This document shows, in pieces, positions 5,668 to 61,519 of a stretch of 61,519 bases of DNA. Source of the DNA: a virus; IMG/VR virus record IMGVR_UViG_3300032213_001563, positions 1 through 61,519 of that record. One strand, written 5' to 3'. Both the position numbers and the translations under genes were made by a program. The notes under the pieces are model-generated. The model did not search any database. It saw nothing but the letters and a program-made list of their open reading frames with translations, and was not told the DNA's origin. Positions within the stretch are counted from its first letter, which is position 1. Each line of letters starts with the position of its first letter.

Positions 5668-5694
5668 CCCCTCAAAACACCCTACCATAAACCT

Positions 5695-8325: not shown

Positions 8326-8342
8326 CTTACTTTCAGGGAGTC

Positions 8343-8363
8343 CTTAGAACCTGAGGTTCTAAG
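8343..8363 (+). repeat. CTTAGAACC palindrome 9, compensatory variant
   Basis: Arms are CTTAGAACCT and AGGTTCTAAG with centre G. The tenth base of each arm has changed in a matched way (A/T pair to T/A pair), so symmetry is kept although sequence differs. It ends 31 nt before the ATG at 8395. Confidence 0.9.
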
Positions 8364-8394
8364 GACTCTCGATCAACAACAACCCCACAAAAAT

Positions 8395-17200: not shown

Positions 17201-20200
17201 ATCTCTGCAAGGGCTTCGTTGATGCGGATCGCGACGAGGCGCTTCACCTCGTCAGAGTATTCCTCGAAGAAGGATTTCTCCGAAATGCCAGCGGCTTCGG
17301 CAGCCTTCTTGACTTGCCCACGGATCTTGCCGTCAACCATACCGACCATCTTATCAGAGACCCACTCAGCCATCTGCTCAGGGATAGAGATGTCTGGCTC
17401 ACCAGCAGCGAGACGATCCAGCGAGTCCAGTAGGTCAGCCAGAAGTTTGACCTCAGCAGGGCTACCGCCAGCGGCTTTGGTCACTGCTTCGATGATCTTC
17501 TTGAGGAGCGGAGATTTCTTGACGGCATCTTCAGCGGAAGCGTCAGCGTCCTTCTTCAGCTCAGGGAATAAGTCTTTGGCATCTTTAGGCAACTTCTCAC
17601 GGGAACCCTTATCGACCGCGTCTTTGTAAGTCGCCCCCGCTGTTTTAGGGTTGAACAGTTCCTGGGCGAGCTTGGCTGCTGCGAGCATTCGACCGGAGGT
17701 AGAGGCAACGTCTTGAAGGCTGCGCCCTTGAAGCTTGGCTTGATCTTCAAGATCCTGCAATAGGACAAGACCTCCAGGAGTCGGAGTCTTTGCCATCGCA
17801 GTCGTCAAGTCTTGGACCCGGCGGTTGAGTGCTTGGACAATAACAACACGAGCGAGGAATCGCTGCACGTCCGTCAGGTCATACACGCCGCCCGCAACAC
17901 TGGCGTCGAGTGCGCTGAAGTCCGACGCTGAGGAGAGACTAGCTAGCTTGGCACCGATTTGGGCTTCGACTTGTTTAAGGTCAATCTCTTTGGTAGAGCT
18001 GAAGTAGGTGCTCTCCTTCAGGTATTCTGCAACCTTCGTTGGCATTGCTGGCAGTGAGCCTCTCAGAGCTTGCGTCACTTTGAGCACGCCGGTCACTGTG
18101 CCTGGGATGGTGCGAACCGGGGCTAGGCTGTATTTAGTCTCGGCCTCGGGCAGCGAACTCATCATCTCCATGTCAGACTTAGCAACCTGAGCGGCCAGCT
18201 CATTTATGCCGTCGCCGATGACCGGAGGATTCGTCGTGTCAGGATTGCGGCTCACGTTGACCAGCACCGATGCTTCTTCTTGAGCGGCTTTCTGTGCGAA
18301 CTCCGTGCTCTCGGCTGGAGGGAATTGACCGTAAGCGGCGGGCATGACGCCCGGCTGGATCACAACCTGCGGGTTCTCCGCAATGTTGAAGACACGGTCA
18401 AGGCTTTTCTCCAAAGCAGAATCACGTGGCAGATCGGGGAACACCGCTTGATAGAGTTTGCTCAGGATGCGCTGGATGAAGTTAGGGCGTCCTTCGGCAG
18501 CGGCTACGTCAGCACCGACGGAGGGTGGCAGGGTTGCCAGCCATGAACTGAATCGAGTATCCGCCAGGACACCGGCGATGAACTCTTCTGTATCAGCCAA
18601 CTGGTAAGCGAACTCGTCACTTTCAGGAGTTGTCTTGGCGAACTCAGCAGCAGATTTGCGGAGCTTGTCAAGCTCGTCGAATGCTTGCTTGACCGGCTCG
18701 GACACCTTGCCCAGCAGGTAGTTGTTGTACGCGATCGAGGTTACTGCGTGCGAGCTTTCGTGGATCAGGGTTTCAATGATCCATGCTTTCGTCAGCGTTG
18801 ATTGCATCGTGCCTTTGAACTCTGGCTTCACGAAGCTCAGGTTCAGAGAGATGGTGTGCTCATTCGGATCGTAAGCGCCAGAAGGACGGACGATCTGGTT
18901 TCCGTTGACGGCTTGCTTTGCCCCGACGCAGAGCGACAGCCCGCGTAGCGTGGCAACATCCGCATGGGCGGCTAGGTATTCAGCAACCTTGCGGCGAGCT
19001 GGGTCCACGCCTTCCATATTAGCGATAGCGGAAAGAGCGGCCCGCACAGAGGCTGGGTCTCCGTCAACCAATCCGAGTTCTTCCAAGACAAACTTGGTCG
19101 CGTCTTCTTCAGACAGCGGAGTAGTCTCAGGAGTCTTGCCGTCGAAGGCTTCACGAGCGCCGCTACGCATTGCTTGACGCAGCATCTCGGCCTCAGCCAT
19201 GTCATCCCTGGCCTGCTTAGCAGACTTGCCAGTCTTGCGGGCGTAGATGTCAGGGATCTCAGAGTTATTCGGGCGGGCAGGCAGCGCCACAGACAAGCTG
19301 TTCTTGGAACCAACGCCCATCGCGTCGAGGAATGACTCGATATTGAGGATTGCTTTTGTGGCGTTGATGTCGCCGTAAGCTCTCCACCATGTCAAGAATT
19401 GACGGGCGGAAGCTCTCAGGAAGGCGATCGTTCTAGCAAGCGTGCCTGAGGATGCAGACATCATTTCCAGAATGTCTTCTGTCGTATGTCCATTTTCAGA
19501 CACTTGACGCATCATGCGGTAGTAGTCAGCACCAAGCTGCACCATGCCAGCAGCGCCGTCCGGTGTGGAGCTTGACGTGCCGCGTGCAAAGTAAGCCAAG
19601 TAGTTTGGGTCTTCTGGGGTGAGGCCATAGACCTGTCGGATAATCCGATGCCGGGTTTCAGGGCTGAGAGACTCGGCGGTGTCAATGAGTTCGCCGTCGC
19701 TAAAGCGTTGTAGGATCGCAAGGGTTGACGCCTCACGATCAAGCAGCGCGTTGAGGTATGTGGTGATGCCCTGCGCGTCAAGACCACGAGAGCGTAGCGA
19801 CCCGACAAGCTCGGTCAGAGCTTCCTCGTTCACATAGACTGCTGTGTCAGACCTATCACGGCTGACAAAGAGAGGCTGCGAAGGAATGCCAGGACCACCA
19901 GCAACCATCTTGATCTCACGTCCAGTCTTGACTTTAGCGGCACGGAGGAACGGAGCGAAGTCAAGAGGCTTCTTGACACCGTCTTCCGCGACCTCAACTA
20001 CGGATTCAGCAAGCGGGGTTGCTTCTTCAACCGGGACGTCGGACTCAGGAAGCAAGCCGATGTTAGTCTCAGCGATGCCTTCAGGGTCCGCAGCGGCAGA
20101 GTCGTCGCCAAGCAAGCGAGCCTCTACGGTATTGGTCGAAGCTGGGGAGTTAGCTAGATCGACGGCTTCACGAACCTTGGCAACGTGGCTGACTTCCTTG

Positions 20201-23200
20201 ACCCCAGCGGTGCGAGATTTAGGGAATGCAATCTCTGGGTTGTTCAAGACAGCCTTCAGCAAATCAAGGAAACGCTTCCCTTGGTTAGGGCTGTTGACCA
20301 TCAGACTACCAGCGGCCATAAGACCAGCGTGCAAGCTAGATCCGCGCTTAGTAGGCTTGCCAGTAAGCAGCTCACCAATGGTGCTCCAGAAACGGCTCCA
20401 CAAAGAGACCAGCTTCGGAACCTTGATGCCAGTCTTATGCGTCCGCAACATCTCGCCAAACTCGGGAGATGTCAGCATTGCTTGGACGAATGAAGGGGTG
20501 TCCTTGAGGGCGTCGGTGAATCGAGCCTCCATCCCGCCAGGGCGTGTGGATCGCTCCACGAGGACAGCTTCTTGACGAAGCTCGTCAAGAGTTGCCAAAG
20601 CTTTGCTCTGGGTTGCATTGAGGAGCTTGCCAGGAGTAGTCAGCTCTGAGGTAGCGTGGGTCAAAAGCCCACGTAGCAGGGCTTCAGGGCCGCGAGGAGT
20701 TCCGTCAAGAGTTGGCGTCATAGCCGCCACGTTGAGGACCAACTGAGAGTTACTGACGAAGACGTCGGAGCTGAGAGCGGGGTCTTCAATAACTTGCACT
20801 CCTTCGAGGCCATCTAGGAGACCTGGATTCTCGTTAAAGATCCGAGCAAGCGCCTTGAAGTGTGGGCTGCCGCTGTTCTCTTTGTTGACCAACTGACGAA
20901 TCGCCGCCGCAACCGTCGCCATATCGGACTCTTGGTTGAGACCGATCGCGGAAAGCTGGCCACGATAGCCAGCTTGATCTGCTGTGGTGTTGGAGGGCGT
21001 TGCAGTAAGTTGGACCATGGCAAGCCCTGCGTTGACCGCCTTGGTCGGAGATGGAGAAGCCATCCGAGTTTGCGTAGCCTTTGCTTTAGCCTCCGCCGAT
21101 TTCACCGCGTCATCGACTTTCTTTTTAGCCGCCTCCCTTACAGCAGGAGGAACTGTCTGAGTTATCGGAGAAGCTGGCTTCAGGCTCTTTAGCTGTGTCC
21201 TTGCGTCGGCGAGTGACTCACTAGCCTCTTTAATGGCCATGTTGATGCGACTCAACCGTGAGTTTAGCTCGTTGGCCTGCTTCTGGATTTCGGGGGTTAC
21301 GGGGGTTTCGCGGGTAGGTCTGATTTCGGCAAGCCTATCCTTGGCTATAGCTGCCTCGTTTTCTAGGCGAGAAATCTCTTGTTCGAGGCGGGCCACCGTG
21401 CCCGCAGCCGCCATAACAATCGCTTCCTGTGTCACCTGAGCTTCTAGCTCTCTGGCTTTAGCAACTTCTGTAGAAGTTGCTGTTCTGCCGCGCACGCGAA
21501 CTTGAGGCGTGATGTCACTGGTTAGCCGCGCCAGTACAGCAAAGACTTCTTTGATTGAGCCCCGTGCAGAGTCAGAATTAAGGCCCAGGTTTTCTGACGC
21601 CTGCTTAATGATTCTTGCGGCAGCACTGGAGTCGCTAACCTTGACGACGGCCGCAATATAAGCCAAGTCCATTGTCTTGAGCTGCTCGTCAGTAAATCTG
21701 CGAGCGCCAACACGGGTGGTCAATTTGCTGAGGGCATCACGACCAAGCTTTGCAAAGTCGAGGAAGAAGCGAGCCACATTGGGCATCGCGCTGATTCGCT
21801 CAACAAGGGTTTTGTCTTTGAGCAAGTTAGTTAGGCCGCGTCGCTCGTCTTTGTTAAGGGCGGGGCCGTGTTCATAAATTAGCTCACCGTCAACCCCCAC
21901 CTTGAACTTGAGGTTACGCTGGAAGTCAGCCAAAGCTTGACGAGCTTGCAGTGGCTTACCTGTGAGGGTGAGAAGACTTACTTCATCCGGCGTCCCGTCG
22001 TTCAACTCTTGGAGGGCGGCACCTAAAGCGGCAACCTCCTCTTCGGTAAGAGGAGTGTCTCCGGCGGCTTGTTGGTCGATGCTCATATCGACCTTGCCGA
22101 AGTTTTGCTGAATGACGTCTTTACCCAATTCAGCAGATTCACGATCTGCCGTGCTGAGAGGATCATCGAGCGATCCAGTGATAATAGTCCGGCGAGTCTG
22201 CTCGGCACCCGTAAAGTCTTTGAGCACGTCCCTAACTGTGATCTGGAGCGGAATCAGCTTGTTGGAGACTTCCTCAGGAGAAAGCTCAGGGTTATCCTTG
22301 AGTAACTGGCGGACCTTTACAGTGGCTGCATTTACCACCGCGCCTTCGATAAGCGTTACCCTGTCTTTAAGAGCTTCTGGGTAAAGCCCGGTGTTAAGGA
22401 ATCGGCCAATTATGGTGACGTATGCAGGGTCGCCCTGACGAGAGATACCAAGGTACTCTTGGAGCAGGACATCCTCGCCAGGAATGGACTCCGGCGCGTG
22501 CTTCTCTACGTACTCAGGCGTGCCAATGAACGGAAGCTGCGGGTTCGCCGTCTTAGACATAGCCATGATCTGGTCGATAAGCTCAGCTCGATCGGCTTTA
22601 AACTCGGCGATAGCCTCGATGGATAGCTCCCGACCGCCAGACACACCAGCGGCGATAATGTTTGACGTCGTGCGTAGCTCTTCACGTAGCTGGTCAATAG
22701 TCTTGCCTGTCTTGGCAGCTATCTTTTCCCCTGTGCGTAGAAGGCGATCTAAGCGAGACTGGCGTTTGGGGCTATTCTTATAGAGCGTAGTCCATTCCCC
22801 GGCCTTGGTAATTTTTGCATCACCGCGTGTCTTATCATAAGCGCCCGTGACGACGCCATTGGCATCGACCTCAATCCCCGGAGCAATCTTAGATCTCGAC
22901 AAAGTAGGTGGAACGGTAACTTCCCAGCCCGCATTGATCTGCTTAGCCGTGATGATCGGATCGTTGGTGAAGAACCCGACTCGTTTGCCGTTGACATCTT
23001 TGTAGGGAACCGGCCCTCCCTGGCTCTTAGTGTACTCTGCGGATGGAGAGAGTGGCTTCATCTGCGAGCCATAAGTTGACCCGGTGAGCTCTCCATCAGG
23101 ACTACCTTCCTCTGGTGGATACGTCTCTTTCCAAGCACGGTTAAGATCCTCCATGATCTCTTTGAGCGCAGGGTCATTATTCGACACGCCTCTCGTGGTC

Positions 23201-29844: not shown

Positions 29845-30047
29845 TGCTGTAGGAAAATGAATTGCTCGTTGAGCCCTGACATAGATCCCACACGCCCTGC
29901 ACCAAAGACGCGGAACATGCCGAAAGTTGAGTCAATATGCTGCTCAACAACCGTCTTCAGTGCAGCGAACTGCGCATCACCTCCAGCACCCCCATTCAGG
30001 GTTTCTAGGAGTGAAGGTTGCGGGGTTGGCTCAGGTTCTTCGATCAT
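29841..30047 (-). CDS. Small protein between tail genes, 68 aa
   Basis: The chosen ATG at 30047 overlaps the adhesin gene's stop (ATGA) and gives MIEEPEPTPQPSLLETLNGG, followed by a helix and a Gly/Phe-rich end. A slightly longer frame starts at 30062. The chain of 4-nt overlaps from 30047 to 29662 suggests a tightly coupled set. No recognised family. Confidence 0.5.
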   Translation of the reverse strand: MIEEPEPTPQPSLLETLNGGAGGDAQFAALKTVVEQHIDSTFGMFRVFGAGRVGSMSGLNEQFIFLQQ

Positions 30048-33000
30048 GGTTTGAAGATGCAAACGCGGTTACGATCGGTGACGAGGAGGTCGTTACCCTG
30101 CCACGATACGCCAGAAGCATCGGATAAGGTAGCTGCGGATCGGGGTGGCAGGGTTGTAGTGTCAAAGTTTGGTTGTCCAAGCACCGCTCCGGGCAGGCTG
30201 CCGGTAACAAGCGAGCTCGTTGAGTAGAACAGTAACGCCCGGTAGTTATTCGTATCAGCTACTGCTAGCTGACCTGAACTATTGACGGAGACTCCGCTAG
30301 GTTGATTGACCCCTCCACGACCTGATCCAGCGGCGAAGGAGGATAGATCTGGCTGGAACAAGATAGCAGAGTGGAAAACAGGGTACCCATTCGGGACTTC
30401 TGGGAAGACAACAACCCGATTCCATCCTGTGTCTGCAATGTATAGCTTCCCGTCGGAGGGGCTGACGCACACGCTTTGCGGAGACTTTAGACGTGGGTAA
30501 GTAAGCCCGCTAATATTGAGCACCGGAGAAGTAGGTGTAGCGACCGAGCTAGCCGCCTGACCGAGAGCATGATCTGCCGCTTGTCCGTTGACCGCTGGGA
30601 ACGAGGTCCACAGCAGGATACGGTGGTTGACGGGGTCCGCCGCGAGTAAGCTTCCGGCTTTGCCAGTGCCTGAAGGATCTGGGTTTGGCACAACAAAGAT
30701 GTCGGTAATGCCGCCAAACTTGCTGAGCGTGTACCCTGAGTTTGCGGAACCTGTAGTAAAGCTAGTGCCCTGACCCAAGACTAGCGAAGCAGCTTGGGTA
30801 GTCCCTGGAGTGTGGGACGCTGGAACTGTGCTGTATATTAGGATGCGGTTGCGGCCTGTGTCTGCAACAACTAGCTGATTGCCATACCAAGCAACTGCTC
30901 TAGGACTTTGAAGATTGCTTACTGTGATCGTCGTGGGCGCGGCGGACGCTGTAAAAGAAGTCTGACCAAGGACAACATCAGCGGCTTTGCCGGAAATAAG
31001 GTCAACGTAACTATTCCAAACAAGAACTCGATGGGCCTGTGTATCAGCAATAGCGATTCGCCCACTAGAGCTAACGGCTGCACGGGATGTGGTGCTATTG
31101 CGGATTGTCGAATCATCGGTGGTAAATGCCGCGTCAGCAGTCAAGTTACTCTGCCCTAAAACAAGTGAAGCCGACGATGCGTTCTGTAAGCTCCCCGGAG
31201 GGTAGGCAAACCCTGATAAGGTCACATTAAATGGATTCTCATCAGCGTCGTTATTCGGGATATTGACCGTTGTGGTAAGGGGGCCGGTAGTTGTGCCAGG
31301 GCTTACAATAACATCAAACGCCGTCGATGGGTCTCCTGGGTCAAGGTGAGTCACTAAAGGATTGAGGGCGGTGGCAGTAAACTTACTGACGTCACCACCC
31401 AAGACAGACGGAGTTCCGAGGTTAAGCCTAGCATTACCTAAATTGTTGATCGTGAAACGAGTGGAACGGGACAAGCCAGTAGCTAAGTTGCCGAAGCTGA
31501 CAACTGAGGTGCCGTCGATTAAGATATTTCCGAGGGAAGGGGCTTCGACCTGAATCTCTTGTTGGGTCCCCGCAGTTCCAGAAACCGCAATGCTGAACGT
31601 GGGCTGAATTGGGTCACTGCTTAATAGCTCTAGCGTGGTGGATTTTAATCCAGTAGTCGTCCCGGTAGGCGGGAAGAAGATGACGCTCAGGTTAGACGAA
31701 CCTCCCGGTGCGATCGTGGCTGGTAAAGTGCCTGAGACACTGAACAATGAGGCGTCGCCACCAACAAAATTTGCAGCACTCAGCGTCAAGTTACCGACTC
31801 CTACATTGCGCACTGTGATCGTGGTCGAAGTGCTGTGTCCAGGAGCTGCAAAGCCTAGATACAGCGGGCCTCCAGAGAGTATATCTACGGAGTCATTGTC
31901 ACGCACAGCAATTCGTCCTACGGCTACACCGGTAGCTGTGACGTTAAGTAGGTATGGAGACTCGCTTCCGTCTGGGTCATTGTTGGCAATAGTCACCTGC
32001 AAAGCCTGGGCTCCGCCAGCAGCAGGAGTAAAACGAAGTGTAACCGTCCCAGAGCTGCCCGCAGCAATCGCGCTAGCTGGAGCTCCAACAAGACTCCATC
32101 CTGACGGAGTCGGCGAAGGAAGCTGCACCGATGCTTCTAGTGGCCCGTTTCCTAGATTTTGGACCGTGAACACATAGTCAGCAGAAGATCCTGTGTTTAC
32201 GTTGCCGAGCGCAATAGCTGGCGAGTTATTGCTGACGACATTGCTGCCGCCATACTGCACGTTGATCTCCGCTTTCACGGCGCTACCTGTCAAGTTGACA
32301 ACATAGCTAGGGATGTTTGACGCATCTGATAGGAGCGTCATCGTTGCCGTCCCAGCCCCTGTCGGAGTTGTTGGAGCAAATAAGACGTCAACGGTGGCGC
32401 TGCCTCCGGGCGGGATCGAGGTAGGCAACTGGCTAGTCACCGTAAAGTAACTCGCGTAGTCGCCAGTAAAAGAAACGGAAATCCCAGAAAGTGTCAGCAG
32501 CCCTGGATTACGAATGAGGAACGAACGAGTAGCCCCGACAACAGGGGTCGCATTACCAAAGGCCAGCGTTCCAGTGATGGTAGGCAGAGCGACGTCATCT
32601 TCGGTGTCAAGGCTGCCGTCAGGACCCGCAGTATAAAGAGCGATCTCTGGAACTGGTGGGCACATAACCATCAACGTGTTCGACTCCCAGGCGATCTGGT
32701 TGAGGCCGACAAATCTATAGGCCCGCAAGCGGCAGTAATAAGGTACGCCTCGTGTCACGCCAGTCACAGTAATGCCCGTCGTCCCATACACATTGAGGTC
32801 TTTGAATCCTGACAAGAACCCTGTCTTAAAAGACGGATCGGTTGACACGTCTAGCCGGAGTTGGGCTGGCGTCTGGGTATGCGTCCATGCGAGGACAAAC
32901 GAAGTTGCTGCCGTGGACACCAAAGTTATGTCGCTGTCAAAAGCTCCGCCAGCGAGGGTAGGGGCGTCAACAATTATCACGCGCTTCAACCATCCGCCTT

Positions 33001-34357
33001 GATTCGGGCGCAAGTCAACTTCGGCAACAACGCTGCCGGGCCAGCGAGGGTAGTTAGTTGCTGGATACTCCTGCTGGAAGTTGGCCGCGTAGAAAGTTAC
33101 GTAACCGTGCAAGCACGCTGGAACTTCAACCTGAAGTAGCGGGCTGTTAAAGGAAATGGATTTGGGTAGCAGGGGTGTTGGCTCCTCCAGTTTAGGAGAA
33201 GTGTTTGATGGGCTATTGCTAGTCCAAAAAGGATCGCCGCCGACTACAGGCATCTTGCTCGTCCAGGTCTCGATAACAGTAGCGAGGCAAGGGCCGGAGT
33301 AAGGGTCGGTCGCAAAAACTGGAACCGTAACGTAGCCCGTTATCTGGGAAAAGATGTTTGACGGATCTGAATAGACCGGCGTGATCCTAACATAGTTTAG
33401 CACCGCTGGCCACGCGTAGTTGGTGATGATCTTGTAGGAGCGAGTGGCTACACCATCGACAGCTTTCCCGGCGAGCCCTGCGGCTTGCTTGGTAGTCTTG
33501 ATTGACCAGAGAGTGTTGACGGGCTGTAGCTCGACCACACTTCCATCGGTTTGAATGCCTGTCGGGATCGTGGTCCCAGCATCAACTTTACTGCGCCGAT
33601 AGGTATTAGTGGCGTTGGTGTCGGCGTCGAACTCACGGCCCAGGAGCTCGTTTTCTACATAGCGGACAATGGTGGCGGGGAATGTCCCCGTCGCGATCGG
33701 AGCAATCGTCACAACAGCACTCGCCGTACTGACGAGGGAGCTGATGGCGGTCCCTGGCGGTATGACCGCGTCAAGGCTTTCAATATAGTCGCCCGCAACA
33801 CGCAGAGAAGGGGAGGCAAAGCTGACGGTAGTTGATCCAGCGGTCGTGGTGATATTCGTGGTGCCAGTCACCTGACGGCGGCGGATCTTCTCGCGAACCA
33901 CAACCACCGTCACAAAAATTGACGACAGCACTTCGTCAGAAAGAGGACGCTCCTCAACTCCAACGGCAGCCCATTCCAGCGGGTAAGGGAAATACCCCAG
34001 CGGCGGCATCGGGTAAGTCGCCGAAGCGGAGAACTCAGAACGTCGAATGACGAACGTCTGCTCAAGCTGAGGCCACTCGTTGGTGTCGCGCACCTGCCAA
34101 TTATAGAGGTGCTGATTCTCCCGCGTCGTAGCGTAATACCACCGTTGCCAGCCAGCTCCGCCTTCGGCGGTCACAAATACTAGCTCGTGATGAGGATACT
34201 TAGCGGAGTCTGGATGCGGGTCGCCGTAAGCCCAAGTCTTGTTCTTTGGTAGATCTCCGTCGCGCACCTCGAAGAAAATCAGATCTTCCTGCCCCTGCGG
34301 AGTTGGGAAGGAGAGAACGGGGATGCGCTCGGGGATGTCGGGCTTTGGGCGAATCAT
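30044..34357 (-). CDS. Adhesin-like virion protein: ASH/'choice-of-anchor D' plus NHL repeats
   Basis: In this 1437-aa protein, the N-terminal third looks like a tail-attachment domain followed by a fibronectin-III-like stretch (about 480-575). From about 575 to 1080 come four or more immunoglobulin-like repeats with 'NPGLLTLSGISVSFTGDYAS' and 'GPLEASVQLPSPTPSGWSL' themes, the ASH/choice-of-anchor D style common in secreted Verrucomicrobiota and Planctomycetota proteins. The last 340 residues hold NHL-type beta-propeller repeats ('GRIAIADTQAHRVLVW', 'GQLAVADTNNYRALLF', 'GKLYIADTGWNRVVVF'). No signal peptide is seen. It likely forms a tail appendage that binds the host surface. Confidence 0.7.
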   Translation of the reverse strand: MIRPKPDIPERIPVLSFPTPQGQEDLIFFEVRDGDLPKNKTWAYGDPHPDSAKYPHHELVFVTAEGGAGWQRWYYATTRENQHLYNWQVRDTNEWPQLEQTFVIRRSEFSASATYPMPPLGYFPYPLEWAAVGVEERPLSDEVLSSIFVTVVVVREKIRRRQVTGTTNITTTAGSTTVSFASPSLRVAGDYIESLDAVIPPGTAISSLVSTASAVVTIAPIATGTFPATIVRYVENELLGREFDADTNATNTYRRSKVDAGTTIPTGIQTDGSVVELQPVNTLWSIKTTKQAAGLAGKAVDGVATRSYKIITNYAWPAVLNYVRITPVYSDPSNIFSQITGYVTVPVFATDPYSGPCLATVIETWTSKMPVVGGDPFWTSNSPSNTSPKLEEPTPLLPKSISFNSPLLQVEVPACLHGYVTFYAANFQQEYPATNYPRWPGSVVAEVDLRPNQGGWLKRVIIVDAPTLAGGAFDSDITLVSTAATSFVLAWTHTQTPAQLRLDVSTDPSFKTGFLSGFKDLNVYGTTGITVTGVTRGVPYYCRLRAYRFVGLNQIAWESNTLMVMCPPVPEIALYTAGPDGSLDTEDDVALPTITGTLAFGNATPVVGATRSFLIRNPGLLTLSGISVSFTGDYASYFTVTSQLPTSIPPGGSATVDVLFAPTTPTGAGTATMTLLSDASNIPSYVVNLTGSAVKAEINVQYGGSNVVSNNSPAIALGNVNTGSSADYVFTVQNLGNGPLEASVQLPSPTPSGWSLVGAPASAIAAGSSGTVTLRFTPAAGGAQALQVTIANNDPDGSESPYLLNVTATGVAVGRIAVRDNDSVDILSGGPLYLGFAAPGHSTSTTITVRNVGVGNLTLSAANFVGGDASLFSVSGTLPATIAPGGSSNLSVIFFPPTGTTTGLKSTTLELLSSDPIQPTFSIAVSGTAGTQQEIQVEAPSLGNILIDGTSVVSFGNLATGLSRSTRFTINNLGNARLNLGTPSVLGGDVSKFTATALNPLVTHLDPGDPSTAFDVIVSPGTTTGPLTTTVNIPNNDADENPFNVTLSGFAYPPGSLQNASSASLVLGQSNLTADAAFTTDDSTIRNSTTSRAAVSSSGRIAIADTQAHRVLVWNSYVDLISGKAADVVLGQTSFTASAAPTTITVSNLQSPRAVAWYGNQLVVADTGRNRILIYSTVPASHTPGTTQAASLVLGQGTSFTTGSANSGYTLSKFGGITDIFVVPNPDPSGTGKAGSLLAADPVNHRILLWTSFPAVNGQAADHALGQAASSVATPTSPVLNISGLTYPRLKSPQSVCVSPSDGKLYIADTGWNRVVVFPEVPNGYPVFHSAILFQPDLSSFAAGSGRGGVNQPSGVSVNSSGQLAVADTNNYRALLFYSTSSLVTGSLPGAVLGQPNFDTTTLPPRSAATLSDASGVSWQGNDLLVTDRNRVCIFKP

Positions 34358-53987: not shown

Positions 53988-54377
53988 ATGTCCCCAGAAT
54001 CCATCGAAGGCAAAGCTATGGCGGTTGGAATGACCGACCCAAAAGGTGAGGCGGGTAAATTGAAGTGCCCGCTTCACTTGCTGCCTCCCCACGCGCTTAA
54101 CCAAACGGCATGGGTCCAGGCTCTAGGAGCCCGTAAATACGGCCACTGGAACTGGCGTCAGAACAAAGTAGAAGCAATGACCTATGTCGGAGCGATACTT
54201 CGTCACATGAACGCTTGGGCCTCCGGTGAGGACGACGATCCAGAATCTGGATACTCGCACCTCGCTCACATTGCGGCAGGATGTAACATCCTGATGGACG
54301 CATCTCACGTTGGGAACCTAGTTGACAACCGACCACACCGGTTGTTTCCAGCGACCCAGCAGCAAACAGGCGACTAA
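53988..54377 (+). CDS. dATP/dGTP pyrophosphohydrolase-like protein (MazZ/DUF5664 type)
   Basis: This 129-aa protein has the run HLLPPHALNQTAWVQALGAR, KYGHWNWRQN, ILRHMNAWASGEDDDPESG and HLAHIAAGCN, which fits the all-alpha MazG-like family annotated as dATP/dGTP diphosphohydrolase, to which MazZ of phages with 2-aminoadenine DNA belongs. The E/D residues of GEDDDPESG would hold magnesium. It would trim selected dNTPs or generate dNMPs for the phage. I find no PurZ or DatZ partner here, so unusual DNA bases are not implied. It is upstream of the phage DNA polymerase. Confidence 0.65.
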   Translation: MSPESIEGKAMAVGMTDPKGEAGKLKCPLHLLPPHALNQTAWVQALGARKYGHWNWRQNKVEAMTYVGAILRHMNAWASGEDDDPESGYSHLAHIAAGCNILMDASHVGNLVDNRPHRLFPATQQQTGD

Positions 54378-54447: not shown

Positions 54448-56232
54448 ATGAAGACAGCGGCGATTGACTTTGAGACTTACTACGACTCAACATACGGCAT
54501 CACAATCCAGGGCACGAGGAACTACATCTTCGACTCGCGGTTCGACGCCTACATGGTGACGATAAAAACAGATACCGGCATCGAGTATGCTGGTCCCCCA
54601 GCAGACTTTGACTGGAAGCAGATTAGCGGAGACGGGTGGCAATGGCTACACCACAACGCGAGCTTTGACGAACTGGTGATCGAACGCCTGCGCAAGGATG
54701 GCATCGTCCCAGCAGACGCGATACCAGAGGTGACTCACTGCACAGCGGATCTCTGCGCATACCTGGGAGGTCCGAGAAACCTAGCAGGCGCGTCCAAGTT
54801 CTTCCTCAACGAGGAGGTATCAAAGGAAACCCGATCAGCCATGCTTGGCCAGAAATGGGAAAGCATGACCGAAGAGTTCCGCAAAGAAGTTACCATATAC
54901 GCAATGCGGGACGCTTCTCTGACCCTCTTGCTGTGGCAGAAACTAGGCGACCAATGGCCTGATAACGAACGACTTCTGTCAAGACATACGCGCAGGATCG
55001 CATGGGACGGTATCCCGATCGACGTGGAAGAGCTCGACAAATCCATCCCAGAGCTCGAACGCCGTAATTGGGAAGCAGGAACCCGCCTACCATGGTACCA
55101 TGAAGGCGAAGAGAAACCACTCAGCCCTAAAGCACTGGCCGAACAATGCCGCAAAGTAGGCATCGAGCCTCCACCAAGCCTAGCAAAGGACTCCGCAGAC
55201 TGCGCAGCATGGGAAGATAAGTATGGAGATGACTACCCATGGGTAGCCGCGATGCGGGAATACCGCAGAACTAACACATTGCTGGAGCGTCTCAAGGCTA
55301 TGAGAGCCCGAGTGACCCCAGCACGCGACATGAACTACGGATTGCTCTACTTTGGGGCGTCAGTGACGGGTCGATGGTCAGGAGCAGACGGCGTCAACGT
55401 GCAGAACCTGCCGTCAAAGCCAATGTTCGGGGTAGATTTCCGCAGTTTGCTGAAGGCTCCTCCAGGATATGTCTTCATCAACGCGGACTTGAGCCAGATC
55501 GAACCACGTTGCCTAGCGTGGTTGGCTGGAAATGAGGAACTTCTGCAGAAACTTCGGGATGGGATGGCGATTTACGAAGCCCACGCCCGAACATCTATGG
55601 GTTGGACGGGTGGAAAGCTCAAGAACGAGGATTCACACCTCTATGCGCTCGCGAAAGCCCGCGTTTTGTCGCTGGGTTACGGGGCTGGAGCGGATCAATT
55701 CGTGGTAATGGCAGCCAACTACGGCATCAAGCTCACTAATTCGGAGGCAGAATCCGTTATTGCAGCATTCCGAGCCAGCGAACCACTTATCTGTGGGCGC
55801 AGCGGGGTCTGGAACAACCTGCAAAACGGCATGAATGCCGCCGCCGCGAAGCGGGAAGACTACCATGTAGAGCTTCCATCGGGCCGAGTTCTCCGGTTTT
55901 TGCGCCCTAGCCGACTAGGAGGCTTGACAGCCGAGACCGTAACCGGTCGTGGAGTTACTCGAAGGAAGTGGTGGGGAGGTAGCCTCGCCCAGAATGTTTG
56001 CCAAGCCACCGCCCGCGACGTGTTCGCGAGCTTTATACCAGTGATCGAGTATGAATTAGGTCTGCCTATTCTGTTCCATGTCCATGACGAACTGACGTGT
56101 CTCGTCAAGGAAGACAAAGCCGAGGATGCGCTGCGCGACCTGCTGCAGGTAATGCGCACACCTCCTTCATTCATGCCCGGCCTGCCCCTAGACGCAGAGG
56201 GCAAGATCGTCACAACCTATCCAAACAAGTAA
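54448..56232 (+). CDS. Family A DNA polymerase with 3'-5' exonuclease domain
   Basis: In this 594-aa protein the exonuclease motifs are AIDFETYY (DFET at 7-10), HHNASFDE (69-75) and YAMRDASLT (D155). Polymerase motifs are TGRWSG (307-312), motif A NADLSQIEPR (347-354), the O-helix region LAKARVLSLGYGAG (401-414) and motif C FHVHDEL (543-549). Compact, without a 5'-3' exonuclease domain, it belongs to the phage-type PolA that works with VapE-like primase-helicases. It should replicate the phage genome. The next gene starts 1 nt after its stop. Confidence 0.9.
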   Translation: MKTAAIDFETYYDSTYGITIQGTRNYIFDSRFDAYMVTIKTDTGIEYAGPPADFDWKQISGDGWQWLHHNASFDELVIERLRKDGIVPADAIPEVTHCTADLCAYLGGPRNLAGASKFFLNEEVSKETRSAMLGQKWESMTEEFRKEVTIYAMRDASLTLLLWQKLGDQWPDNERLLSRHTRRIAWDGIPIDVEELDKSIPELERRNWEAGTRLPWYHEGEEKPLSPKALAEQCRKVGIEPPPSLAKDSADCAAWEDKYGDDYPWVAAMREYRRTNTLLERLKAMRARVTPARDMNYGLLYFGASVTGRWSGADGVNVQNLPSKPMFGVDFRSLLKAPPGYVFINADLSQIEPRCLAWLAGNEELLQKLRDGMAIYEAHARTSMGWTGGKLKNEDSHLYALAKARVLSLGYGAGADQFVVMAANYGIKLTNSEAESVIAAFRASEPLICGRSGVWNNLQNGMNAAAAKREDYHVELPSGRVLRFLRPSRLGGLTAETVTGRGVTRRKWWGGSLAQNVCQATARDVFASFIPVIEYELGLPILFHVHDELTCLVKEDKAEDALRDLLQVMRTPPSFMPGLPLDAEGKIVTTYPNK

Positions 56233-56233
56233 T

Positions 56234-58414
56234 ATGACACGCTATTTTTCCCTCCCAAACTTGGCCGGAACCGACGTCAGGCTCGAAGAGCCCGCCGAAT
56301 GGCCGCCAGAACTAGAAGGATCGCTATCCTTCCCATCCAAGGAAGACTTCCGCTCGTGGTGCGTCCAGCCCACGACAGACCACATCTTCTACAGCCTAGC
56401 CGAAGGCGTATCCCCGCGCATCCGCGTCAACATCCATGAGAACCCCGCGCATGTGCTGCACGGATTCGTGGCCGATTACGACGGGGCGGGGATCGTTGTC
56501 AGCGAATTGGTCGAACGCTGCAAGAAGCTGTCCGAGCGTATCCGCCCGACATGGGTAACGGAGACCTACTCCAACAAAGCCCGCGTTATCTGGGAGTTCG
56601 CCGAACCGGTACAACTCACCGGAGACCGCAAGCTCGACGACAAGTTCATCCGAAACCTTGGCAAGGAGCTAAAGGTCGAAACATTAGCCCCAGGACTAGA
56701 CGAGGCTAGCTACGATACTAAGATGTATTGGGAGTTTGGCCGCGCATGGCACCAAATCGGCGGCAAGGTTGACCGGGAGCTGACATTCGCCAACTGGCTC
56801 AAGGTCATCGAGAAGATGAAAACCGAGGGCACCGATCGCGGAGACTCCGTAATCCCGATCGACGTAGTCGCCGCCGCGCTGGAAAAGCGGTACCCAACCT
56901 TCAAAGCAAGATGGGTCGGCGACTTCATCCCTGGAGCACGCGGCCCGCTATTCTGGATTGACGACGGTATCGAGCGCAGCGGTTGCGTTGTCACCGACAT
57001 CGGCGTCAGAGCCTTCTCAACCAGATCAGCCAAGGGACTCCTGACATGGGCAGACCTCCTCGGCATGGAGTTCGTCAAGGAATACCAGGAAAAGCGCCTA
57101 TCGTCAGCCGCCGGAGAGACCTACTATGACACGAGCTCCGGCACCTACTGCCTCTACGTGAGCAACGAATGGCGGCGCTACTCGAAGGAAGACCTGCTGA
57201 TGCGGCTAAAAGTGGCCGGAATCAGCCATCGCCTGAAGAATGGCAAGACGGCAACCGAAGCGGAGCAGGTTCTCACCCTGATCCAGGAAACCCGCCGCGT
57301 TGACGGACAGGGTCCGTTCCTGTTCAACGAGAACTCCGTGGTCAACTTCAACGGCTACAAGATGCTGAACACAGCCTGCGTAAATGGCGTCATGCGCCCC
57401 GCCGCAGACGGCAGCCCCAGCAAATGGCCATGGCTACACCAGTTCTTCGAGAACGTATTCGACCCCGTAATCCAAGACGGATGCCACCCAAGGGAGTTCT
57501 TCTTCGCATGGCTGCAGCGTTTCTGGCGTTCGGGACTGAACTGCGAGCCACGCCTGGGACAGCTAGCCGTCCTAGCCGGGAAGCCCAGCAGAGGCAAAAG
57601 CTTCCTCGGTATCGCCGTCCTACGTAAGATCATGGGCGGCGCGGTGGACGCCAGCAACTACCTACTGGAAGGCAAGGGATTCAACCGCGAGCTGGGGGCG
57701 AGCCCGATCTGGAACGTGGACGACTCAAAATCCACGGCGAACTTCAATGACCACAAGCGGTTCTCGGAGATGCTCAAGAAGCACGCCGCCTCCCCGGAAC
57801 TGGTGTTCCACCCGAAATACATGGACGCAATCACTCTGCCGTGGTTCGGGCGGATCTTCATTACCTGCAACGATGACAGCGACTCGCTATCCATACTGCC
57901 AACCCTAGACGGCTCCATCCTCGACAAGCTGCACTTGTTCCGCTGCCACCCAACATGGAAGGCGGAGTTCGGCACGCTCAAGGAAAACGACGAGATGCTG
58001 TCCAGGGAGCTTCCGCACTTCCTGGCATGGCTGGACGCATGGGAAGCCCCAGAAGGCGTTATGGACGCCAAAAACCCGCGTTACGGGGTCGTCAGCTATC
58101 ATCACCCTGCCTTGGTGGAAAGCGCGCGGGATAGCTCTCCTGACCACCGTTTCGTCGAAATCCTCGAAGCATGGCGGGTATCCATGATGGATATGCACGT
58201 CAAAGGCAAGCCGACGATCTGGATTGGCTCCTGCACAGACCTCCTCCGGGCGGTCAACTCAGACGCCAGCCTCGCACCCCTGATGCGGAGCTACACTCCA
58301 GTTTCCGTCGGACGCATCCTAGCCAAGATCAAAGAATACTACACTCCGCTAGTTCGGACGACAAAGGTGGGAGGCATATCGCGCTACACCATCGACTACT
58401 CTCTGACGCTCTAG
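56234..58414 (+). CDS. VapE/D5-like primase-helicase
   Basis: This 726-aa protein has an N-terminal half that looks like an AEP-type primase domain with VADYDG (80-84; D81 and D83 as metal ligands) and TYSNKARVIWEFAEPV. The C-terminal half is a superfamily 3-type helicase: Walker A LAGKPSRGKSF (447-457), Walker B-like IWNVDDSK (492-499), sensor IFITCNDD (541-548). These proteins prime and unwind DNA in phage modules with PolA and DUF2800 nucleases, matching the neighbours here. A strong terminator follows. Confidence 0.8.
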   Translation: MTRYFSLPNLAGTDVRLEEPAEWPPELEGSLSFPSKEDFRSWCVQPTTDHIFYSLAEGVSPRIRVNIHENPAHVLHGFVADYDGAGIVVSELVERCKKLSERIRPTWVTETYSNKARVIWEFAEPVQLTGDRKLDDKFIRNLGKELKVETLAPGLDEASYDTKMYWEFGRAWHQIGGKVDRELTFANWLKVIEKMKTEGTDRGDSVIPIDVVAAALEKRYPTFKARWVGDFIPGARGPLFWIDDGIERSGCVVTDIGVRAFSTRSAKGLLTWADLLGMEFVKEYQEKRLSSAAGETYYDTSSGTYCLYVSNEWRRYSKEDLLMRLKVAGISHRLKNGKTATEAEQVLTLIQETRRVDGQGPFLFNENSVVNFNGYKMLNTACVNGVMRPAADGSPSKWPWLHQFFENVFDPVIQDGCHPREFFFAWLQRFWRSGLNCEPRLGQLAVLAGKPSRGKSFLGIAVLRKIMGGAVDASNYLLEGKGFNRELGASPIWNVDDSKSTANFNDHKRFSEMLKKHAASPELVFHPKYMDAITLPWFGRIFITCNDDSDSLSILPTLDGSILDKLHLFRCHPTWKAEFGTLKENDEMLSRELPHFLAWLDAWEAPEGVMDAKNPRYGVVSYHHPALVESARDSSPDHRFVEILEAWRVSMMDMHVKGKPTIWIGSCTDLLRAVNSDASLAPLMRSYTPVSVGRILAKIKEYYTPLVRTTKVGGISRYTIDYSLTL

Positions 58415-58446
58415 TCAAGCGCCAGCCCCAGGGATCGCCGCTCCCA

Positions 58447-58485
58447 CCCCATGTTCCTTGCGTAGAGGAGCATGGGGTTTATTGT
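58447..58485 (+). terminator. Terminator after the primase-helicase
   Basis: Stem of 13 pairs (CCCCATGTTCCTT with GAGGAGCATGGGG, two G-T pairs), loop GCGTA, followed by TTTATTGT. It contains an ATG at 58472 that would be a poor start for the next gene. Confidence 0.75.
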
Positions 58486-58492
58486 GTTCAGC

Positions 58493-58981
58493 ATGAGCAG
58501 TAGAGGCCGACCACCAACCAGACCCTGCGAGCAATGCTCGAAACCCTTTAGCCCTCCAGCAAGGAGGCCGACCACCCGATACTGTGGAGTCTGCCGAGGC
58601 AAACGGGAGCGAGCCTCAAAGTCAGGATGTATTGAAGATAAGGCAAGGATAATGATCGCGAAAACTAAGAATCGAGCAAAGAACAATAATCTGCCGTTCG
58701 AGATCGACGCGCTCTGGATCGTCATGCAGTGGTACAAGCAGCACGGAAGGTGCTCGCTGAGCGGCAGGCCCATGACGCTCGCTTTTGGCCCGTGCGGCGT
58801 GAGTCTGGAGCGGATCAACTCAGATAAGGGCTACACGCGGCGCAATACCGTCCTAGTGGCATTGCAGGTCAATTCCATGAAGAGCGACATGAAGCTGCAG
58901 GACTTCTTGGACTGGTGCAGGACCGTGACCGAATACAGCGAATCGAAGGGGGGAGAGCCCCTCGAAAACTTAAATCGTTGA
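58493..58981 (+). CDS. Zinc-finger, HNH/endonuclease VII-like protein
   Basis: The protein is 162 aa from the ATG at 58493; the ATG at 58472 is inside the terminator stem. The N-terminal zinc finger is CEQC...YCGVCRGKR. The second half has RCSLSGRPM, SLERINSDKGYTRRNTVLVA and LQVNSMKSDMKLQDFLDW, the 'C-x-SG...SLDRID-x-x-KGYT-x-x-N' layout of HNH or endonuclease VII-like phage proteins. It lacks a full set of clearly placed catalytic histidines, so activity is uncertain. It may be a structure-specific or homing-type nuclease. Confidence 0.6.
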   Translation: MSSRGRPPTRPCEQCSKPFSPPARRPTTRYCGVCRGKRERASKSGCIEDKARIMIAKTKNRAKNNNLPFEIDALWIVMQWYKQHGRCSLSGRPMTLAFGPCGVSLERINSDKGYTRRNTVLVALQVNSMKSDMKLQDFLDWCRTVTEYSESKGGEPLENLNR

Positions 58982-59054
58982 AACTGAGTCAATTAGCCCT
59001 CAAAAAGAAGGAGATGAGGGGGATGCGGTGGGGTAAAAATGGGTGTCCTACAGT

Positions 59055-59068
59055 CGCAAATCGTTGAT
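59055..59068 (-). repeat. Iteron-like ATCAACGRTTTRCG, copy 1
   Basis: On the minus strand this reads ATCAACGATTTGCG. It shares the 14-base consensus with copies at 59814 and 59903. Confidence 0.6.
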
Positions 59069-59813
59069 CGTGAGCAAACTATGACGATTTAGTAGGGGAG
59101 TGGGGCAGATTTTGAAAAAACAAAAAACTGTCCGGGAATAAACAATCACCAGAAAAAAAAAATATGCCTATATATATATATATCTTTATATTATTAAAGG
59201 TAAGTTAAGTCCTACATCTCCTACTAACACGCGCCAGCCTTTGTCCCAGGCTGATTGCAGCAGGGGGTGGGGGTTGAAAATTGGGGGTATTTTGACCCCT
59301 ACACCCCTACACATTTTGCCCCCTTTTTGCCCCAAAATCGAGGATTGGAGGGTTCTCGGCCCCTGAATCTATTGTGAATAACTCTGTTTTGCGTGGTGAT
59401 CTGCCTCTTGAATCCGCTGTTCAGATGAGCAGTTTAAGCTCATTCGATTGAGCATAACCCCTGCCCTTGATTTTACTACTCAGATGAACTGCTGTTAGCT
59501 TGAACCCCTGCCGCCCTGATGCCCTGGATAGGGTTCCTTGGTTGGTCGATTGACCGGATCAGTGTCCTTTGATCGACGGATCAGTGTCCCTTGCTTGGTG
59601 AATCAGGGATCATTGCTAGATGGATCAGGGATGAAGGGATGAAGGGTTGCAGGGGTGTGACGTGCATACTTCCCGCGCTTTTATATACTGTTCACTTGAC
59701 CAGGACCCTGAAATTTGGGGAATTTCTGCGAACCCCTGACCGTATAAATCGCGGCTCAATCCGGCCCCTGACACCTCTACCCGTGGGGGTGTCCACCTCG
59801 CAACGCGTTGATT

Positions 59814-59827
59814 ATCAACGGTTTACG
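59814..59827 (+). repeat. Iteron-like ATCAACGRTTTRCG, copy 2
   Basis: Reads ATCAACGGTTTACG. The palindrome CAACGCGTTG lies just upstream. Confidence 0.6.
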
Positions 59828-59902
59828 ACGCTCCTGACTATGGCTGGGCACATTGTGATGAAGCTTGACGACTCGGGGAAAGCCCCACCTAAATCATTGG
59901 CA

Positions 59903-59916
59903 ATCAACGATTTACG
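59903..59916 (+). repeat. Iteron-like ATCAACGRTTTRCG, copy 3
   Basis: Reads ATCAACGATTTACG and overlaps the perfect 14-nt palindrome GATTTACGTAAATC. Confidence 0.6.
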
Positions 59917-60038
59917 TAAATCCCTACTAATTTAGTGGAGTATTGGGCAAGTCTGGCAGGTCGATCATATATGATTGAACCCGCGAGGGGCGCTCCTGGA
60001 GTCGCTGTCATAACTCGTTCATTATCAGCGGATTATGG

Positions 60039-60060
60039 CTTAGAAACAAATGGCTCTAAG
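60039..60060 (+). repeat. CTTAGAACC palindrome 10, degenerate
   Basis: Outer arms CTTAGA and TCTAAG are intact but the centre has changed. It is the only copy outside the left 8.4 kb, near the origin-like repeats. Confidence 0.55.
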
Positions 60061-60143
60061 GGCTCGTCAAGGTTTGACGAAAGGCTCGTCAAGGTTTGAC
60101 GAAAGGCTCGTCAAGGTTTGACGAAAGGCTCGTCAAGGTTTGA
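60061..60143 (+). repeat. Four 22-bp direct repeats with internal palindrome
   Basis: Three full and one partial copy of a 22-bp unit whose core is CGTCAAGGTTTGACG (arms CGTCAA and TTGACG). Direct repeats each with dyad symmetry suggest binding by a dimeric replication, partition or repressor protein. Confidence 0.85.
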
Positions 60144-60219
60144 ACCCCTGAACCCCTGAACCCCTGCTACCCTGCTACCTTGAACCATTTCAATCTTAAG
60201 TCACTGTCACTCTATAGGA

Positions 60220-60275
60220 GGGAAGCAGGGAAGCAGGGAAGCAGGGAAGCAGGGAAGCAGGGAAGCAGGGAAGCA
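60220..60275 (+). repeat. Seven GGGAAGCA tandem units
   Basis: Perfect 8-bp tandem repeat, seven units, purine-rich on this strand, directly upstream of promoter-like copy 3. The copy number may vary. Confidence 0.9.
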
Positions 60276-60280
60276 ATCGC

Positions 60281-60311
60281 TCCCTTTCCTAGACAGTCCC
60301 ATGATGAACGC
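60281..60311 (+). promoter_or_regulatory. Promoter-like block, copy 3
   Basis: The 17-mer variant TCCCTTTCCTAGACAGT extends into CCCATGATGAACGC. The whole 31 bp recurs with one change at 60711-60741, before the next gene. A TATAAT lies at 60319-60324, but its distance from TAGACA is too long for a normal promoter. Confidence 0.45.
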
Positions 60312-60369
60312 GCCTCTTTATAATATAGCGCCTCAATCAATCCCACCCCATCCCATCCCATCCCATCCC

Positions 60370-60639
60370 ATGACATCCCATATTGAACCCACCACCGGAG
60401 CAGCCTTCAGCCTCGCCATCAGAAACAGGCGGCAGGCCGTCCAGGCCAGACGCCTACCAGATGGCGTCTCAATACGAGAAATCACGCCCACCTTGGCGTG
60501 GGTCAGCTGCCGGACCTTCGGGGTCTGGGCAAGCGGACGCCGAGCCATTGGCCGGGCGGTTCGGCTCTGCCGTGCTAACGGCGGCGGAAATCAAATTTCC
60601 GCCGCATTGAATGACTGCCGGCTGTGGCCCCGAGACTAA
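60370..60639 (+). CDS. Hairpin-dense small gene, 89 aa
   Basis: From the ATG at 60370 the product starts MTSHIEPTTGAAFSLAIRNR and is basic (RRQAVQARRLPDGVSIREIT). The frame is open to 60301 but that part is CCCAT repeat. The coding sequence contains perfect inverted repeats: AGACGCC/GGCGTCT (60448-60469), CCCAC/GTGGG (60487-60502), GACC/GGTC with a TTCG-type loop (60513-60525) and an 11-bp stem GCGGCGGAAAT/ATTTCCGCCGC with loop CAA (60581-60605). It may be a real protein, a structured RNA or both. A terminator follows. Confidence 0.45.
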   Translation: MTSHIEPTTGAAFSLAIRNRRQAVQARRLPDGVSIREITPTLAWVSCRTFGVWASGRRAIGRAVRLCRANGGGNQISAALNDCRLWPRD

Positions 60640-60659
60640 TCAATCCCTTCCCATCCAAA

Positions 60660-60691
60660 GGCGCGCCCCCTAAAAAGGGCGCGCCTTTTTT
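60660..60691 (+). terminator. Rho-independent terminator, copy 1
   Basis: Stem GGCGCGCCC with GGGCGCGCC around CCTAAAAA, followed by six T. An identical copy closes the next gene at 61316. Confidence 0.9.
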
Positions 60692-60710
60692 GTGGAGAGG
60701 CGGCATCTGC

Positions 60711-60741
60711 CCCCCTTTCCTAGACAGTCCCATGATGAACG
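60711..60741 (+). promoter_or_regulatory. Promoter-like block, copy 4
   Basis: CCCCTTTCCTAGACAGT plus CCCATGATGAACGC, nearly identical to 60281-60311. It lies between terminator copy 1 and the ATG at 60795, so this unit seems to have its own promoter and terminator. Confidence 0.45.
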
Positions 60742-60794
60742 CATTCCCACATTGGAAAGCGGCACCCTAAATCCAAACACTAGACACCCATCCC

Positions 60795-61298
60795 ATGAAA
60801 TCCGAAACATCCATTCCTTCATCCAACAAAAATCTTATCGCCTTCCTGAAGGCGGTGGAAACGTACAGCAAGTCAGCCTCTAGCTTCCGGGCGAAAGTCC
60901 GGGACATCGTCGCCTCCCTCCAGTTGGAGGGCTTCAGCAATGACGTTATTAAAACGTCAATGAGGGAGGCGGTAAAGGAAAGCGCTGAGGTAACGCCTCA
61001 GTATCTTAACCGCATCTTTGTCCTATCCGCCGAAAAAGGCGGATGTGGATTTGAAAACGAACGCCAGCGGCCTAGCGGGACAAATCCCGCAAAGAGCAAA
61101 GGCAAGCCAGAGGCAGCTAAGCCAGAGGCAGCTAAGCCTAGAGCTAGCCTTGCTAGCTCTGTCAAAATCACGGATGCGGCTTCATTGTTCGCGGCCCTTA
61201 TTGTGAGCTTCGAGGGGAAGACCTCGAAGATTATGCTTCTCGCTGAGAAGCTAGTTTCTCTGTCTGAGGAGCACATTCAAAAGACAGCCAAGAAGTAA
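60795..61298 (+). CDS. Hairpin-dense gene, 167-aa helical protein
   Basis: The product is helical: FLKAVETYSKSASSFRAKVR, DVIKTSMREAVKESAEVTPQ, a Lys/Pro/Ala repeat (KPEAAKPEAAKPRA) and a C-terminal helix (IMLLAEKLVSLSEEHIQKTA). No family is recognised. The coding DNA is packed with perfect inverted repeats, for example CCGGGC-GAAA-GTCCGG (60887), CCCTCC/GGAGGG (60916), TGACGTT/AACGTCA (60941), ATCCGCC/GGCGGAT (61025), GCGGGA/TCCCGC (61075), AGAGCTAGC/GCTAGCTCT (61140), CTTCGAGG/CCTCGAAG (61208) and GCTTCTC/GAGAAGC (61235). The ATG has the usual leader. The RNA itself may be functional. Confidence 0.6.
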   Translation: MKSETSIPSSNKNLIAFLKAVETYSKSASSFRAKVRDIVASLQLEGFSNDVIKTSMREAVKESAEVTPQYLNRIFVLSAEKGGCGFENERQRPSGTNPAKSKGKPEAAKPEAAKPRASLASSVKITDAASLFAALIVSFEGKTSKIMLLAEKLVSLSEEHIQKTAKK

Positions 61299-61315
61299 GC
61301 CAGCCAGCCAGCCAC

Positions 61316-61347
61316 GGCGCGCCCCCTAAAAAGGGCGCGCCTTTTTT
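61316..61347 (+). terminator. Rho-independent terminator, copy 2
   Basis: Base-for-base repeat of the terminator at 60660-60691 (stem GGCGCGCCC/GGGCGCGCC, loop CCTAAAAA, six T), 18 nt after the stop at 61298. Confidence 0.9.
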
Positions 61348-61368
61348 GTGTAGGCATGGCGCGCCTTG

Positions 61369-61519
61369 CTTTGCCTGCCCTTCGATCTTCCCGCCTCGCC
61401 TGCCCTTCGATCTTCCCGCCTCGCCTGCCCTTCGATCTTCCCGCCTCGCCGCGTCTACGTCTAGAACTTCCTGCCCTCGCCGCGTCTACGTCTAGAACTT
61501 CCTGCCCTCGCCGCGTCTA
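61369..61519. repeat. Right part of the end-spanning tandem array
   Basis: Three copies of a 24-nt unit (core CCTTCGATCTTCCCGCC) are followed by 31-nt units of the left-end type (CGTCTACGTCTAGAACTTCC). The last base and base 1 join to complete another 31-nt unit. The two unit families share the TTCCxGCC and CTCGCC parts and are probably related. Confidence 0.9.

Follow-up and report, generated by a model that had tools for sequence, protein, structure and literature searches.

What keeps so many perfect hairpins in two neighbouring genes of a virus, and is it the RNA or the DNA of the locus that is selected to form them? The question is raised by positions 60370–61298 of the window, which is the whole stretch of DNA analysed here, a complete IMG/VR virus record of 61,519 bases. 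An earlier note on this DNA had described the locus as two neighbouring genes (designated A and B) that are packed with hairpins, each with the same promoter-like block in front and an identical terminator behind, and had read them as units in which the structure of the RNA is under selection and an open frame is retained. When a perfect hairpin is defined as a stem of at least 6 bp with a loop of 3–8, the locus contains 14, compared with 1.4 ± 1.1 in dinucleotide shuffles; 12 of them lie within the two reading frames and the other two belong to the terminator that separates the genes, counted in two registers. In shuffles that preserve protein and codon usage, 1.26 hairpins are expected for gene B, which has nine (a count reached in 0 of 1000 shuffles), and 0.34 for gene A, which has three (3 of 1000, p 0.003). 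Folding energies lie beyond both types of shuffle, as in a structured coding RNA: for gene B, z is −6.0 against dinucleotide shuffles and, over three seeds, about −4 to −5.5 against codon shuffles; the corresponding values are −3.4 and −3.2 to −3.75 for gene A and +0.7 and +0.4 for the neighbouring HNH gene, and the whole gene A unit has −3.84. The packing with hairpins and the unusual folding are thus borne out. That other genes of the window lack the feature holds for their total, which is near expectation (77 hairpins in the remaining tested genes and 60.8 expected from codon shuffles), but not for the small gene at 53988–54377, which has an excess of its own (three hairpins versus 0.35, p 0.01, z −3.2), as does 1361–1750 of the related contig L004. 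Because of this excess, the 53988–54377 gene is not a clean control in the sense/antisense energy test described below, where it was used as one. Rfam gave no match at gathering or permissive thresholds, and the hairpins of genes A and B are mutually unrelated in sequence, which is not the pattern of mobile palindromic repeat inserts.

The window encodes a terminase large subunit, a family A DNA polymerase, a helicase/exonuclease, an HNH endonuclease, an integrase and a DUF5906 protein that is labelled primase here. The annotated phage collection contains no close relative, searches of known phages with the DNA, the gene B protein and the primase protein gave no match, and the DNA polymerase matches known phages only at <30% identity; the related contigs were reached through this polymerase. 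L004 is 94.7% identical to the window in DNA over 54448–59915 and then has a different version of the gene A/B locus. The stretch 59915–61519 appears as a module boundary, past which the locus including gene B is replaced, the L004 protein being only ~42% identical. In L004 the gene B locus leads straight into genes from the left end of the window (9882–10460 matches window positions 1253–1828), so the genome is circular or circularly permuted. The ends of the record (1–180 and 61366–61519) sit in a single tandem-repeat array with units of 25 and 31 bp; the array is missing in the relatives, where gene B passes directly into left-arm genes. GC skew was examined for an origin and tracks gene direction. 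ARAGORN predicts a tRNA at 11369–11446 whose anticodon, TTA, would decode the stop codon TAA; because TAA ends 26 of the 38 window genes and a tRNA-Met is predicted in its stead in two relatives, this tRNA is probably decayed or misread. The late-region protein of 30044–34357 (1437 aa) has NHL repeats and several HYDIN/ASH-type Ig domains, which is unusual for a phage. The palindrome CTTAGAACC-NNN-GGTTCTAAG recurs between left-arm genes (262–284, 303–323, 570–593, 793–815, 1179–1199, 2066–2087, 3747–3773, 5645–5669 and 8338–8368), with the arms AGAACC/GGTTCT invariant in relatives, and looks like a repressor operator rather than an RNA hairpin family.

Homologues of gene B are present in five further IMG/VR contigs (Table 1), with 38–44% protein identity to the window and about 67% identity to one another; none was found in the bacterial and archaeal genome contigs searched. 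The gene B protein has no significant Pfam, PHROGs or PDB profile match, and no profile, structure or genome neighbour puts a name to it. Its AlphaFold models are of low confidence (mean pLDDT 53.5 and 51.6), a Foldseek search of the PDB with the first gave no usable match, and at this low confidence the protein appears helical, its Lys-rich linker being disordered. For those comparisons in which dS is estimable, dN/dS is ~0.2, which indicates purifying selection on the protein. A large structured RNA, one of the options in the earlier note, is unsupported as a non-coding RNA in the case of gene B, because the protein is conserved. Open frames antisense to gene B in L006 (17445–18251, 268 codons) and L009 (15601–16377, 258 codons) are probably a by-product of the codon usage.

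All six genomes show a single strong hairpin peak, which covers gene B and the intergenic DNA that precedes it. The peak 1-kb bins hold 12, 14 (with 9 in the following bin), 10, 13, 8 and 12 hairpins with loops of 3–5, and 0.6–0.8 per bin are expected. Within the gene itself, 0 of 1000 protein- and codon-keeping shuffles reach the observed count in five of the six homologues including the window; L004 is near chance (2 versus 0.69, p 0.15). In a swap test, synonymous codons were exchanged between homologues at the same aligned codon so that every protein and every column was kept. This reduced the gene B hairpins from 39 to 17.2 (maximum of 1000 swaps, 27; 0 of 1000 reach 39) and had no effect in the control genes (p 0.16–0.66 overall; at the same stem length, primase 0.50, DNA polymerase 0.155 and HNH 0.48). 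The two closest homologues alone, L006 and L013, gave no signal. In stems common to at least three sequences, both sides have changed in 22 pairs, as compared with 9.6 in shuffles and 2–9 with slid partners, a count of 22 that is inflated since the stems were picked from the same alignment; the swap test is free of this bias. The fourth pair of the KTVxTV hairpin is C-G, G-C or A-T depending on the genome, the AEGG hairpin has different arms in the window and in the relatives, and the window retains a hairpin despite the amino acid change AAKGG to ASLAS. Stems that covary among homologues, with no such effect in control genes, are a feature of structured coding RNA. Because several stems stay paired through changes on both arms while dN/dS is ~0.2, protein and fold are both kept, and the folding therefore seems useful to the phage. 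The hairpins are real, conserved and unusual, and are not due to chance.

Table 1. Coordinates of features at the gene A/B locus (window positions) and of gene B homologues (contig positions)
Feature	Position	Strand	Evidence or remarks
Conserved intergenic element TGTTCACTTGA...CGTTGANAATCAACG...	59690..59835	+	alignment of window, L004, L006, L009, L014
Hairpin CGTTGA-TTA-TCAACG	59806..59820	.	kept in 5/5 aligned genomes
22-nt tandem repeats with TCGTCAA-GGT-TTGACGA hairpins	60064..60143	.	
Promoter-like block copy 1, CCCTTTCCTAGACAGTCCCATGATGAACGC	60282..60311	+	exact duplicate of 60713–60742
Gene A, 89-aa open frame, hairpin rich	60370..60639	+	3 vs 0.34 hairpins, z −3.4
Hairpin AGACGCC-8-GGCGTCT	60448..60469	+	
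Hairpin CACGCC-6-GGCGTG	60483..60500	+	
Hairpin GCGGCGGAAAT-CAA-ATTTCCGCCGC	60581..60605	+	
Intrinsic terminator 1	60657..60692	+	12-bp stem AAAGGCGCGCCC, then T6
Promoter-like block copy 2	60713..60742	+	identical to copy 1
Gene B, 167 aa, conserved protein, mRNA a hairpin chain	60795..61298	+	homologues, hairpin excess, covariation, dN/dS ~0.2
Hairpin CGCCTT-CCTG-AAGGCG	60839..60854	+	alignment columns of homologues' helix 1
Possible alternative long-range pair, CGCCTCCCTC (60911–60920) with GAGGGAGGCG (60962–60971)	60911..60971	+	
Hairpin CCCTCC-AGTT-GGAGGG	60916..60931	+	L014: TCCCTCC-GAGC-GGAGGGA, same codons
Hairpin TGACGTT-ATTAA-AACGTCA	60941..60959	+	near relatives' GATGAC-NNN-GTCATC hairpin
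Hairpin CTGAGG-TAACG-CCTCAG	60985..61001	+	
Hairpin ATCCGCC-GAAAAA-GGCGGAT (AEGG hairpin)	61025..61044	+	relatives, same codons: GCCGCC-GAA-GGCGGC or CTCC-GAA-GGAG
Hairpin GCGGGA-CAAA-TCCCGC	61075..61090	+	within insertion missing from relatives
Hairpin AGAGCTAGC-CTT-GCTAGCTCT	61140..61160	+	relatives: GCCGCC-AAA-GGCGGC, amino acids differ
Hairpin CTTCGAGG-6-CCTCGAAG	61208..61229	+	
Hairpin GCTTCTC-GCT-GAGAAGC	61235..61251	+	L014 also: CTTCTC-GCA-GAGAAG
Intrinsic terminator 2	61316..61347	+	stem same as terminator 1
Gene B homologue, L004	7536–8042		
Gene B homologue, L006	17517–18038		
Gene B homologue, L009	15835–16350		
Gene B homologue, L013	79–609		
Gene B homologue, L014	5214–5723		

The hairpins of gene B avoid its first codons and occupy the frame up to the stop and the terminator. 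Two loops that the earlier note had singled out in perfect stems, GAAA (60893–60896) and a TTCG-type loop (60517–60521), are at the positions given, and each of their stems includes a G-U pair. The long-range pair that it took to enclose two hairpins encloses only that at 60941–60959; its 3′ arm is at 60962–60971, not 60963–60972, and because its 5′ arm overlaps an arm of the 60916–60931 hairpin, it excludes that hairpin instead of enclosing it. The pair is not part of the minimum-energy fold. The duplicated flanks are as described: the 30-nt block has two identical copies and no other within the window, and the 26-nt terminator stem is identical at 60660–60685 and 61316–61341 and absent elsewhere in the window. 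Genes A and B share block, leader and terminator. Neither the block nor the terminator of the window was found in the other viral contigs searched. In the relatives, variants of CCCTTTGCTTCGCAGTAATAT, one to three per genome or contig, sit ahead of early genes, and every genome has a terminator after gene B with a stem that is altered yet still paired. With a GC-rich stem and a T-run that are retained across relatives, these are intrinsic terminators of the ordinary Rho-independent type, unusual only in that those after genes A and B are identical copies. Upstream of the unit, the conserved element at 59690–59835 is a possible origin or other cis site. At the site equivalent to the 22-nt repeats, the relatives have a single CGTCAA-NNN-TTGACG hairpin. 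Short tandem arrays lie just 5′ of the genes at 60216–60283 (8-bp GGGAAGCA unit) and 60345–60375 (CCCATC-type unit).

Gene A is known as a single sequence, a search for homologues having found none, and its coding signal is weak. These observations, together with the folding of the whole unit, would fit a gene A that specifies a short structured RNA instead of a protein, with block and terminator in common with gene B. We consider this possible but on the unlikely side, as there is an 89-codon open frame, which is the best scoring of the six frames and has a start context (CCCATCCCATGA) resembling that of gene B. A hairpin excess is also seen in three genes that follow gene B in L009 (16486–16740, 17146–17412 and 17843–18445); with the gene A cassette, this hints at a property that is in part one of the locus as opposed to a single gene.

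Our best reading, to which we give slightly less than an even chance, is that gene B is a structured, autonomous mRNA of an uncharacterised group of dsDNA phages. The gene would form a short single-gene transcription unit comprising a promoter-like block, an unstructured C-rich leader, the 167-codon frame and an intrinsic terminator. Its transcript would be selected to fold, within the coding region, into a chain of 6–11 small hairpins that are mostly Watson-Crick paired with loops of 3–4 nt, while purifying selection keeps the protein. From its anatomy, the chain may protect or time an early-arm mRNA by blocking nucleases or Rho or by tuning translation; alternatively, it may present a series of sites to which a phage protein binds, possibly the Lys-rich product of gene B itself. 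The second cassette of the window, gene A, whose block and terminator are identical to those of gene B, shares the property. Sense RNA is favoured as the selected molecule for the gene body because the mRNA sense folds more strongly than the antisense, relative to codon shuffles, in five of the six homologues (differences of −2.48, −2.36, −2.02, −1.76 and −1.54); the combined z is −3.7 over homologues that are not independent. Against this reading, L004, which is near chance in hairpin number, has no sense bias (+1.02), G-U is no commoner than A-C at homologous stem positions, the peak extends over intergenic DNA ahead of the promoter-like block, and the island is enriched in C(GNA)G triloops, a form typical of stable hairpins in DNA.

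The last two features would be explained if the intergenic stretch and gene B formed hairpins in single-stranded or negatively supercoiled DNA, and these served as an origin of replication, as a zone where a primase or initiator is loaded, or as N4-like hairpin promoters, with the gene body recruited because it adjoins that site. In the intergenic DNA before the block, 6-bp triloop hairpins number 26, with 1.4 expected, and C(GNA)G loops or their complement C(TNC)G account for 19 of the 47 triloop hairpins of the island versus 4 of 129 elsewhere (Fisher p 2e-9, with hairpins that are not independent across homologues). The loops occur in both orientations and the conserved 150-bp intergenic element lies alongside. 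If transcription starts at the block, this part of the peak is absent from the gene B mRNA. Promoter hairpins of phage N4 are reported to extrude from supercoiled DNA only if the closing pair is C-G and the loop starts with G and ends with A (PMC4496689). Many intergenic hairpins of the relatives have the same anatomy as those of the N4 early promoters, with a stem of 5–7 bp, a 3-nt loop, a C-G closing pair and GNA, as well as a location in the early-gene arm, and a role at the DNA level is possible for this reason. Unlike N4, however, there are dozens of hairpins and not a few, their stems are unrelated in sequence, and many are in coding DNA. The conserved stem and start-site bases of the N4 type were not found, the stems varying from hairpin to hairpin, and the intergenic hairpins of the window itself do not have the C(GNA)G triloop or GAA loops. 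An N4-type giant virion RNA polymerase was not detected; the 3897-aa protein of 14275–25968 has no match in Pfam, PHROGs or PDB. The folding asymmetry between sense and antisense and the hairpins that fill the coding frame as far as the stop and terminator also argue against selection on DNA, a reading that we regard as unlikely. For the gene body, RNA is probably the molecule concerned, with DNA a serious rival and both a possibility. What the earlier note proposed, selection for RNA structure with retention of the open frame, is supported for gene B by the shuffles, the homologues, the covariation, dN/dS and the sense bias; RNA as the molecule is less settled, given the intergenic peak, the DNA-stable loops and the lack of a G-U preference, and for gene A there is a single sequence.

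Hairpins could also arise by mutation, with template switching at stalled forks perfecting near-palindromes and no selection for structure. The concentration of the excess in perfect Watson-Crick stems with 3–5-nt loops, the lack of a G-U preference, the excess in the downstream genes of L009 and the location of the locus at a recombination or module boundary in the window are consistent with such an origin. We nevertheless consider it improbable, because hairpins are at homologous codons, with paired changes, despite dS values mostly near or above 1, and because the sense-strand bias and the non-random loop type are not accounted for. That the hairpins are a by-product of the protein, with codons for repeated Ala/Gly/Lys or Asp/Val motifs complementary by accident, is very improbable and is rejected by the codon shuffles: several hairpins are on AEGG, AAKGG and AKAAK motifs, but the excess is lost in shuffles that keep the protein and codon set and in codon swaps between homologues, and the window hairpin persists where AAKGG became ASLAS.

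In a broader form that we put forward as conceivable, and somewhat doubtful, the locus is a conserved hairpin island in which control DNA and a whole protein gene (in the window, the second cassette also) are selected for both the protein and a chain of mini-hairpins, which would act as DNA, as RNA or as both and provide a platform with many sites for a factor of phage or host origin. Ordered RNA structure across the coding regions of a whole genome is a property of RNA viruses and single-stranded RNA phages. There too, coding RNA is selected for many local hairpins, as seen from covariation at synonymous sites, whereas here the selection concerns one gene of a dsDNA phage and the rest of the genome is near expectation. 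The toxin mRNAs of type I toxin-antitoxin systems (PMC6733600) are a further likeness, as mRNA folding within the coding region of a small bacterial gene matters; the gene B protein differs in being larger, soluble-looking and Lys-rich. A structured coding region is therefore of a known kind, and what is new is that it is confined, in a group of dsDNA phages, to a single locus: covarying, hairpin-packed coding sequence is familiar from RNA genomes and not from a single dsDNA phage gene among other genes that are plain. If the fold is functional, the phage devotes a large part of the synonymous choices in one gene to structure, the role of structure in a coding region could be tested by recoding a single 500-nt gene, and the locus would point to a factor that reads, or is blocked by, chains of hairpins.
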